This document shows, piece by piece, positions 26,495-63,690 of a DNA stretch of 64,000 bases (position 1 is its first letter; each line of letters begins with the position of its first letter). This stretch comes from Macrocystis pyrifera (Eukaryota; Sar; Phaeophyceae; Laminariales; Laminariaceae), in NCBI GenBank assembly GCA_031763025.1, contig JASSKH010000025.1, positions 5,970,689 through 6,034,688 on the forward strand, written 5' to 3'. The translations under genes were made by a program, and so were the position numbers. The notes beneath the pieces are model-generated. The model had not been told where the DNA came from, did no database searches, and saw only the letters and a list, made by a program, of their open reading frames with translations.

Positions 26495-29400
26495 GTACGC
26501 TCTCGCCCGCTTGGCGTCGTGGATGATGCGTCGTCCCGAAAGGACTCGTACTCGTACCCGTACTCTTGCTCGTACTCGTTGTGCTCGTACCGCCCCGCTT
26601 GTAGAGCGCGACAACATGACAGCTCGTGTATCATTTCAATTCCGCCATACTATGGAAGCTGCCGCCGCCGCCGCCACAGCAGCAGCAGCAGCAGCAGCAG
26701 CAGCAGCAGCAGCAGCAGCAGCAGCGGTCTAAAAGTGCTGGTGAGGTGGTGCTGATGCTGTTGATATTTGTTGCTCAAGCTGATGCTGCCGCTAGCTGTG
26801 CTGCTGCTTGCGGTCGTGGGGTGGCAGTGACGGCACTGCGGTCAACTCTGCCGCCAACACGGTTGCTGGGCTGCCGTTGCTACTCGCACTCTGTTTTTTT
26901 TTTTGCTTCTTTCTTTTTTCGGTTTTTCGTTTATCTTCGTTTTGGTTTTCCGCCTTGCCGCACATCCCCGCTTCCCTCCTATATTTCGGAGGCGTCGCCT
27001 GCAGACTTGAGTTTACCTCGTCCGCGAACGCACCAAGATTACATGATGGGAAGGAAATCCGCTTCTTTTTAGCGGAAGGAAAGTCAATTTCTGAAGACAT
27101 GCGATAGGTAATGACGGCCCATTTTAAGCCTTCTAGGACCGCCGTCCCGTTTTCGGAAAAAAACACTGTGATTTAGAGTGGTTTGTCCCTAAAACTGGAC
27201 TGCACTGCTGAAAGGGTTAAGGGACCCCACGTATAACAGTGCGTTCGTGTTTGGAGGTCCCTTGTTGTGTAGGTACCAATATCCGTTATCAGAGCCGTAC
27301 CGGTCCCTTCTTATCAAAAGTGGGCTAAAACGGTGGGCAGGACTTTGAGGTCTCTCCCAGAACTACTGCTGTATCTGTGTTTTTTTGTATCTTGAGCTGT
27401 GAGATCAGATCGAAGATTTCGTCGTAGCTCATATTTTTGCAAGCTGCGTAAACTTGACTTGAACAATGCGGCTCGACAGGGGTGTGGCGAAGCGGCCGGC
27501 ACGTGGACGCGTGTGCATGAGCAGCGAGGCCAGCCCCGCCGCCGAGAAGACCAAGGCCGACGCCCCGCCAAAGATGGAGGAGGAGGTGAAGTGGTCGTGT
27601 CGTCGTGTTGTACGTGGTGCCCCCCCGCCAGCCCTTTCCTAGTCGGCATGCAGTGGATTAGGGTTTGCCGGTGCTGAGGACCAGGGTCTTCGGTGTGTGT
27701 GCGTACTCATGTCATGCATGGCCGTAGTCGTATGACCATAGGCCCTCGCATGGGCGGGGGTATACTCATTTTCATGCATAACCGTAGCCGTATGACCATA
27801 GACCCTCACATCCCTACAATGCCGGGACGGAGCACGTCGGGTTTTCACCGACCAGGCAGGCATTGCTTGCACCAAGCGCGAAGCGCCGTGAGGTGTTGGA
27901 GGGGGGGGGGGTATATGATGGTGGTCAGGGTGGTGTTGGTGGTGAAACTGAGTCTGGATTGGATTGGGCTGTGAGGTGGGTGCGGTTGTCGAGCTCAAAA
28001 GGTTGCGATATGTAATGGTGCCATTGCGTGTATACCCGGTATGTATTGGCACAAACAGTAGTGGTGCTTTGGGTGAAGGAGCAGCAGCAGTAGCTGTAGC
28101 GGTGGTAGTATTGCTGCTGATGATGGCAGGCAATAACAACAACAACAACAACAACAACAACAACAATATCAACTTCCTCGTCCTCTCTCAGATCGATCCC
28201 GGGGTGGTCGAGGGTACCAACTTGCGCGTCCTCAAGTACCCCCACCCCGCCTTGAGGGCTGAGAACGCGGAAATCGAAGTCTTCGACGACGACCTCAAGA
28301 AGCTTGCCAAAGACATGCTCAAGGTATGGGATGCGTACTGCAGGGGTGAAGGGGGGGGGGGGCGACACTCGTTTGATATTTGCCTTAGTCGTGTGACCAT
28401 TGAACACGCACCCCTTTCGAGTCGGAGCACCTTTCCTAGCACTGTTCCTACTTCTAACAAAGACACCTCCAACTGACCATTACACGCATCCCTCTCGAGA
28501 CGGAGCACCGTTCCTAGCACCGTTCCTACTCCTAACAAAGACACCTCCAACATTTGGCGTTCATTTCGTGTTTTCGCTGTATTGTATCAATAATTTTTGC
28601 TCATCTGGACGGGGGCGTGTACTCGATATCATGCATGGCCGTAGTCGTATGACCATAGACCCTCGCGTCCCTACAATGCCGGGACGGAGCACGTCGGGTT
28701 TTCACCTACCAGGAAGGCTTTGCTTTTCTGGGGAGAGGGGTATTACTCGAGGTTAGCCCCTTGGAGTGTTGGGCTAATGTGAGAACAACGTCATCATCAT
28801 ATGATGCCATTGCTTAAAAACATCCCCCTCTAATTCCAAGTAGTTTTGTCTATAGTACGTGCTTGCAGGTTTCGTGGGGTTGAGCTTGCGAGAGAGACGC
28901 GAAGAGAAAAAGTTGGGCTATGGACGGGCGACCGACATACCCACCCCACCAGTCCGACTCCCGCACGTCTCTATGAAAACACCGCCCCGATGTGGTTGCT
29001 TGGTGCTTGGTTGATTGCCCCCCCCCCCCCCCCCCCCCCCCCCCCCCCCCCCCCCCCCCCCCCCCCCCCCCCCCCCCCCCCCCCCCCCCCCCCCCCCCCC
29101 CCCCCCCCCCCCCCCCCCCCCCCCCCCCCCCCCCCCCCCCCCCCCCCCCCCCCCCGCGATTTATACTCATACGACCACGGCCATGCAATGACATGAGTAT
29201 ACCCCCTACCCGACCCCACTCCACCCCCCCCCCCCCCCCCCCCAGATGGTGGTCACAAGAGGCCAAACAGGAAGGGGATAAGATTAGCATTTTTTTTCGA
29301 TGTAATATATGGAAACAACGTAATGAGCGCCCAATTGTTGGAGGTGTCTCTATTAGGAGTAGGAACGGTGCTCCGTCTCGAAAGGGATGCGTGGTCAATG

Positions 29401-63362: not shown

Positions 63363-63690
63363 TATGCATGATGTCGAGTACACCCCCCCCCCCCCCCCCC
63401 CCCCCCCCCCCCCTCGGCTTGGTGCAAGCAATGTCTTCCTGGTCGGTGAAAACCCGACGTGCTCCGTCCCGGCATTAGGGAAGCGAGGGTCTATGGTCAT
63501 ACGACTACGGCCATGCATGATATTGAGTACACCCCCCCCCCCCCTCCCCCTCCTCGGAGTGTTTTTGGTCATACGATTACTGCCGTGCATGACATGAGTA
63601 CCCCCCCCCCCCCCCCCCCCCCCCCCCCCGATGCCTGTCTCTCGTCCGTGAAAACCGGGCGTGCTCCGTCCCGGCATTGTATCAATACCA
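63363..63690 (+). mobile_element. Three F1 fragments each ending in poly-C
   Basis: CATGATGTCGAGTAC+C; CTCGGCTTGGTGCAAGCAAT through CATACGACTACGGCCATGCA and GAGTACA+C; GTCATACGATTACTGCCGTG and GAGTAC+C; then GTGAAAACCGGGCGTGCTCC. They lie just 3' of GTPase exon 11. Confidence 0.8.

Follow-up and report, generated by a model that had tools for sequence, protein, structure and literature searches.

A LINE and its probable SINE-like partner share a 3′ module in Macrocystis pyrifera and are likely to insert into genomic C tracts

In pairs of a long interspersed element (LINE) and a short interspersed element (SINE) with a shared 3′ tail, for example UnaL2 and UnaSINE of the eel, the short element ends with the 3′ sequence of the long one. 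In this study, we describe a LINE and a short partner in the kelp Macrocystis pyrifera, copies of which were found in a window of 64,000 nt (the whole stretch of DNA that was analyzed; assembly GCA_031763025.1, contig JASSKH010000025.1, positions 5,970,689–6,034,688 of the forward strand). The two elements end in a common module followed by runs of C, most copies also have a C-run before their 5′ end, and both partners are likely to insert into existing C tracts.

Further comparable systems are described in the available excerpts of three publications. Some LINEs insert specifically into RNA genes, telomeric repeats, or certain microsatellites; LINEs that target simple repeats include several HERO families and Togen, whose target is (TG)n, and target-specific apurinic/apyrimidinic (AP) endonuclease LINEs are found in the Tx1 and R1 clades (PMC4640811). 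In Lepidoptera, RTE LINEs have microsatellite ends; the repeat lies at the 3′ end, and the target duplication comes after it (PMC2887409). In Ectocarpus, RTEX-N1_Ec32 is a non-autonomous element of ~600 bp whose 3′ end is that of RTE-X LINEs and whose 5′ region is of unknown origin, and it is the most abundant single family there (PMC12477816).

The initial annotation of the window had recognized two repeat families, F1 and F2, with different bodies and a common 3′ module. F1 corresponds to family A of this report and F2 to family B, a pairing that we infer from the piece counts. The common module was borne out: over the last ~73 nt, the A and B tails aligned with a score of 49, compared with a maximum of 26 in 2000 shuffles. 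A BLAST comparison of the A consensus with the B reference recovered 35 nt of the shared module (80%, E 0.005) and nothing below E 0.5 outside it, the B reference being one copy that is truncated by the edge of its locus. Within 27702–63690, where about 15 F1 and 5 F2 pieces had been counted, 18 A and 5 B pieces plus tail-only stubs were found, leaving out two fragments of 24–25 nt. As had also been noted, copies are shortened at the end away from the C-run, and the starts of the A copies range from position 1 to position 470 of 519.

In a listing of all C and G runs of at least 8 nt with their flanks, GAGTAC followed by a C-run was present on both strands of the window. Genome-wide enrichment of the module beside C-runs, proposed earlier as a check, was evident: in the 537,376,219 bp searched (223 contigs), the exact 17-mer ATGAGTAC+C9 occurred at 4,127 sites (2023 and 2104 on the two strands), compared with 12 (7 and 5) for the reversed pattern. 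C tracts of at least 20 nt numbered 47,558 genome-wide, or ~1 per 11.3 kb. According to the excerpt available, the assembly comprises 537 Mb in 223 contigs with 50.37% GC and was produced with PacBio Sequel II, Canu, and Racon (PMC10498591); because of this origin, C-run lengths are only approximate, and their exact values are not trustworthy.

Copies were collected from 58 loci (numbered with the prefix L) around ATGAGTAC+C9 sites, which are those that come first in the genome, so that the sample is not random. In total, 178 copies reach the tail; 166 remained after 12 near a locus start were set aside, and 151 after a further 15 duplicates were removed. A 3′ C-run was present in 94/113 A and 50/53 B copies, the loci being partly picked by this feature.

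A C-run before the 5′ end is a new observation, missed in the initial annotation. With the rule of at least 6 C in the 30 nt that precede the 5′ end, a C-run was found in 110 of the 166 copies not at a locus edge (76/113 A and 34/53 B) and a G-run in none (0/166), whereas random positions in the same sequences gave 3.3% for each. The deduplicated set gave 102/151, comprising 55 copies with a module or another copy just upstream (chained) and 47 without any found (plain). When the count was confined to copies with a readable tail that had not been used to pick the locus, 62/83 had the 5′ C-run, and in the window the figure was 14/23. A C-rich patch (12 of 20) lay within 45 nt of 99/151 copies and of 48/96 unchained copies, compared with 6.1% at random; the corresponding G-rich patch was found at 0/151, compared with 5.9%. 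The C fraction rose from ~0.30 at −100 to 0.53–0.55 in the last 20 nt. The gap between C-run and 5′ end was zero in 29 copies, and 15 of 16 A starts found by their 5′ motif had a C-run in the 70 nt upstream (read by eye). For unrelated repeats of these loci, 8 of 366 ends lay at a C-run and 7 of 366 at a G-run.

The orientation of the copies was also fixed: neighboring pairs within 150 nt had the same orientation in 60 cases and the opposite in 1 (63 and 2 in a looser count), some of these pairs being tandem duplications. At L036 (3507–3954) and on the minus strand of L013 (3511–3970), adjacent A copies have an identical truncation point and represent local tandem duplication, not independent insertions.

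We consider it likely that the LINE and its SINE-like partner insert into existing C tracts through the shared module of ~73 nt, with a nick in the G strand as the primer. The LINE protein would bind the module, and its endonuclease would nick a genomic poly-C tract on its G-rich strand, after which the RNA would anneal to the exposed G-ended primer by its 3′ terminus, GAGUAC followed by some Cs. Reverse transcription would proceed toward the 5′ end of the element, often halting early, and the second cut would be made in or just downstream of the tract, so that the duplicated target would be mostly C and hard to see. Once inserted within a C tract, the element would offer a new target in its own 3′ C-run, so that chains of same-orientation copies would be formed. 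The 3′ C-run would combine Cs of the target tract with Cs that were encoded in the RNA or arose by slippage. The orientation and the C on the same strand at both sides are observed; we infer that the G strand is nicked, that the RNA anneals there, and that A relies on the LINE protein. The earlier idea of a SINE that borrows a LINE tail thus fits the shared module and the partner with a reverse transcriptase (RT), whereas the poly-C tail has to be revised, since a C-run also lies 5′ of most copies; in our reading, the 3′ C-run is more than a tail and is at least partly target.

Family B represents the 3′ part of an RT-encoding LINE. Going upstream from the tail, its copy coverage falls slowly over >2 kb, the pattern to be expected of 5′-truncated copies, and the 3′ end is fixed. 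In a long B copy on the minus strand of L034, RVT_1 was detected with E 2.4e-27 (96.4 bits, cut-off 29.6), and 10 sequence matches in the PDB include R2 (the best) and L1 proteins. Upstream of the RT on the same strand, Exo_endo_phos_2 matched with E 9.5e-6 (25.9 bits, under the Pfam cut-off of 27.4) and Exo_endo_phos with E 3.1e-4 (21 bits, under the cut-off of 24.5), the copy being cut at the locus edge. The LINE is thus probably of the AP endonuclease type. This copy carries stops and frame changes, and its last frame ends in VNGQMTKASNK before a TGA inside ATGAGTAC; the shared module therefore overlaps the LINE coding sequence. A LINE whose 3′ untranslated region ends with the module had been expected: the LINE was found, but in L034 the open reading frame stops inside the module and leaves hardly any 3′ untranslated region. 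A search of IMG/VR with the RT protein and the 26-nt module pattern revealed no relatives. In a B copy on the minus strand of L031, a 332-nt insert (~951–1282) terminates in an A-run, and the LINE sequence is taken up again beyond it; the insert looks like an mRNA retrocopy with a poly-A tail, and poly-A RNAs may therefore also be retroposed in this genome.

Family A is a non-autonomous element of ~505 nt that has its last ~73 nt in common with B. Its coverage drops sharply ~0.5 kb upstream of the tail, the consensus (519 positions, from 6 full-length copies) begins with TATATATGGGTTGGGTTGG, and 19 of the 103 deduplicated A copies start within the first 15 consensus positions. Because the two bodies share the 3′ module, the longer one is a LINE, and the copies are 5′-truncated, A is probably a LINE-dependent, SINE-like element. 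The searches detected no known RNA head (tRNA, 5S, or other): ARAGORN found 0 tRNA genes in the window, and Rfam gave no match at the gathering score for an A copy, with three weak, unrelated ones at E ≤ 10. A conserved tail hairpin was not supported either; the A and B modules gave a similar three-stem shape that was no better than shuffles, and RNAalifold predicted no structure for 66 tails.

The nature of A has a second possible explanation, compatible with insertion into C tracts, in which A is a deleted derivative of the LINE or a copy of another RNA moved by the LINE instead of a SINE with its own RNA polymerase III promoter. The lack of an Rfam match at the gathering score and an internal T-run in A are in keeping with this origin, as is the Ectocarpus analogue, which, in the text available, likewise has an unexplained 5′ region. 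Beyond the module, however, A had no BLAST match below E 0.5 to the B reference, itself one truncated copy at the edge of its locus, and we regard this origin as somewhat doubtful.

Whether the Cs are target or tail was assessed from free tracts, target duplications, and empty sites. At most 71 of 120 non-anchor C tracts of at least 15 nt had no copy on either side, an upper bound because at least 8 of the listed rows show module pieces on reading, and at 17 of the 120, a copy starts after the tract with no tail before it. The possibility that free C tracts are the tails of other retroposons was rejected as a general rule, since the right flank recurred upstream in 3/166 cases against 2.7 expected. 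For 44 unchained copies with usable flanks, target-duplication scores of at least 7 were obtained in 4, compared with 0.29 expected by shuffled pairing. The high score at L043 reflected self-similarity of the element and was discarded; L015 (CCCATCTAATATCT), L011 (CCGGCCAACTCACAT, one indel), and L030 (CCCTGGTGA) showed clean duplications, all three of which start in Cs. In L015, nearly all of the 3′ Cs after GAGTACA belong to the duplicated segment.

At L013, a B-A-A-A chain interrupts a LINE at C5, and the uninterrupted copies in L034, L018, and L039 also have C5 on the chain strand. Cs were thus already present in the target, and some new sequence came in as well, namely 20 nt (C9 + 11 nt) at the 3′ side that the uninterrupted copies do not have. 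Duplications across the C-run, which had been suggested as a check of the poly-C tail, gave a divided answer: the Cs taken in by the L015 duplication and the C starts of all three speak against a tail, and the added C9 of L013 speaks for one. Empty sites within other repeats of the loci were not found in the 84 of 93 blocks tested, and 16 candidate empty-site pairings were rejected, 10 as duplicates of the same insertion and 6 as products of the L004 block, an inverted-end repeat.

Several results weigh against insertion into C tracts as the general route. The loci were picked by the 3′ C-run, not by the 5′ side. No C-run was present in the 30 nt before the 5′ end of 49/151 copies, 10 of which have a C-rich patch within 45 nt; in view of these copies, either the preference, if real, is less than absolute, or target deletions and divergence conceal it. 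By alignment, only 13 of 19 full-length A copies pass the 30-nt rule; some fail because a 5′ A-T stretch moves the C-run outward, and others have no C-run. Only 3 clean target duplications were found among 44 eligible copies, a scarcity expected if the target is mostly C. The only empty site is the nested one in L013, where the 20 nt on the 3′ side are an added tail. Left and right C-run lengths showed no correlation, a comparison that is uninformative as a test of target versus tail because homopolymers are noisy. In addition, no RNA polymerase III promoter was found in A, for which no formal scan for promoter boxes was made, and the folds of the A and B modules were no more stable than shuffles (z −0.12 and 0.25), so a recognized hairpin is unproven.

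These results were weighed against other origins of the C-runs. In the model of the initial annotation, genuine poly-C-tailed RNAs, with the Cs encoded or added, insert approximately at random, and the 5′ C-runs come from later copies that landed in older tails. Such a history is consistent with the 55/151 copies chained to another copy or module, with the C9 added in the nested L013 case, and with copies that lack a 5′ C-run and have a long 3′ run, such as C52 in L028. However, in 47/151 copies no module was found upstream of the 5′ C-run, the unchained copies are C-rich in 48/96 cases compared with 6.1% at random, the 3′ Cs of L015 belong to a target duplication, and the 3′ runs are short (median 5) in 21 unselected copies without a 5′ C-run, so that we hold this model to be unlikely.

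It is more improbable still that the RT made both runs, adding the 3′ Cs during priming and leaving extra-templated dG on the cDNA end, which would read as C before the 5′ end. Although the zero gap in 29 copies and the similar left and right runs of 26 unselected plain copies (medians 10 and 7) would suit this origin, copy-free C tracts are common (the count being an upper bound), and the L013 target already had C5 before the insertion. Moreover, the sequence after the 5′ C-run in L011 and L030 recurs after the tail and, because it is repeated there, is target. C tracts might also mark break points of recombination or of the assembly and border these repeats by coincidence, as the very many C tracts in a PacBio assembly and the near-identical duplicates among some loci could suggest. 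This explanation has very little probability in our view: the ends of other repeats lie at C-runs in only 8/366 cases, the runs are C on the element strand only (G, 0/166), and the 3′ end is fixed, with 5′ ends scattered over the full length of the element. Insertion into existing C tracts remains the explanation that we prefer.

The copies in the window illustrate these arrangements (in parentheses, positions in the A consensus or the LINE reference). On the minus strand, the full-length A copy at 59126..59651 (1–519, 97.3%) has C10 at 59126–59135 and, on its 5′ side, CCCCTCCCCCC followed by (AT)n; the near full-length copy at 58294..58825 (4–499) has C30 at 58294–58323 and, on its 5′ side, C7 followed by (TA)n. 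The truncated and interrupted A copy at 58862..59119 (385–501) has the C-run of the copy at 59136 on its 5′ side. An A copy at 52480..52636 (384–499) has C32 at 52480–52511, an A piece lies at 52389..52458 (428–494), and the copy at 51305..51494 (327–501) has a short C tail. Other minus-strand A copies were found at 28611..28725 (394–501), 27756..27896 (366–499), and, as a stub, 27703..27751 (451–500), together with diverged B pieces at 28474..28606 (3340–3463) and 28351..28473 (3396–3490; C12 at 28351–28362). The A copy at 45852..46326 (71–482) is an exception, with its 3′ end followed by a long T-run and no C-run.

On the plus strand, C-runs on both sides are seen at the A copy 53635..54035 (150–519; C23 at 53595–53617 on the 5′ side and C18 at 54018–54035 on the 3′ side), at the A copy 36145..36389 (280–489 aligned, tail to 36364; C7 directly 5′ and C25 at 36365–36389), and at 29244..29459, the last 190 nt of the LINE reference (3303–3492), with C20 before the 5′ end and C25 after the tail. 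An A stub at 29167..29206 (467–499) lies 11 nt downstream of a C138 tract (29018–29155), and a further A copy is located at 30215..30447 (287–499). One chain begins with a B stub at 57077..57168 (3445–3488; C39), continues with an A copy at 57186..57420 (290–501; C19), and has as its third member a B stub at 57421..57515 (3410–3491) that begins directly at this C19. Another begins with a tail-only stub, GAGTACA plus C31, at 63376..63413; the A copy at 63417..63544 (385–501), with C13, starts 3 nt after the C31. An A stub with C29 at 63557..63629 (455–499), an internal A piece at 63636..63681 (400–447), and a B tail stub with C33 at 60364..60405 are also on this strand, as is, outside 27702–63690, an A stub with C21 at 6986..7078.

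Other features of the window were recorded. Positions 1–13300 form a large inverted repeat whose arms flank a 100-N gap (7330–7429), with C/G runs and open reading frames mirrored; it looks like a scaffolding or fold-back artifact. At the tract at 853–884 (C32) and 12665–12704 (C40), a 13-nt direct repeat, TGTCTGGGTCTCG, occurs directly after the tract and again 59 nt ahead of it; this might be a small insertion that ends in C and has a target duplication, but such cases overall were not above chance. Inverted-end repeats (TATTACGGGGGTCCATAGTTAATAGGACC...) at 34630–35208 and ~61894–62951 and in L004, the ends of which contain G5 runs, probably represent a DNA transposon.

A broader proposal, which we put forward tentatively, is that the kelp pair is a system specialized for poly-C: it would nick G homopolymers, each insertion would be a fresh target, and the cycle would have helped to build the 47,558 tracts of at least 20 nt, making this the first homopolymer-C-specific retrotransposon pair. 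A homopolymer-C target of a LINE was not found in the literature searched, with Repbase and subscription journals outside the search. If true, a homopolymer target would widen the range of LINEs and give a simple priming rule (C-ended RNA on a G-ended nick), with C-runs as a genomic landing pad, and it could help to explain the abundance of C tracts and chained repeats in the kelp genome. Since C tracts disturb assemblies and markers, knowledge of their origin would also be of practical use.

Compared with UnaL2/UnaSINE, family A likewise carries the LINE 3′ sequence at the end of a short element; it differs in that no RNA polymerase III promoter was found in it and in that the shared part overlaps the LINE coding end. 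The kelp LINE resembles the Lepidoptera RTE LINEs, as the excerpt describes them, in short 3′ repeats, many truncated copies, and, probably, one frame with AP endonuclease and RT, whereas its C-run lies on both sides and their repeat is described at the 3′ end (PMC2887409). As for Togen and HERO in the available text, insertion is likely to be within a simple repeat, and a repeat on both sides of the insertion, the feature of such targeting, was found at 102/151 kelp copies; unlike theirs, the kelp target would be a C homopolymer (PMC4640811). The RTEX text, as far as available, mentions no C tract at either end, and the terminal motif is not known from it (PMC12477816); an RTE-X label for the kelp LINE would rest on the Ectocarpus analogy. 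By description in that excerpt, the kelp A/B pair has the same architecture as RTEX-N1_Ec32 with RTEX-1/RTEX-2_Ec32, and both systems belong to brown algae (PMC12477816).

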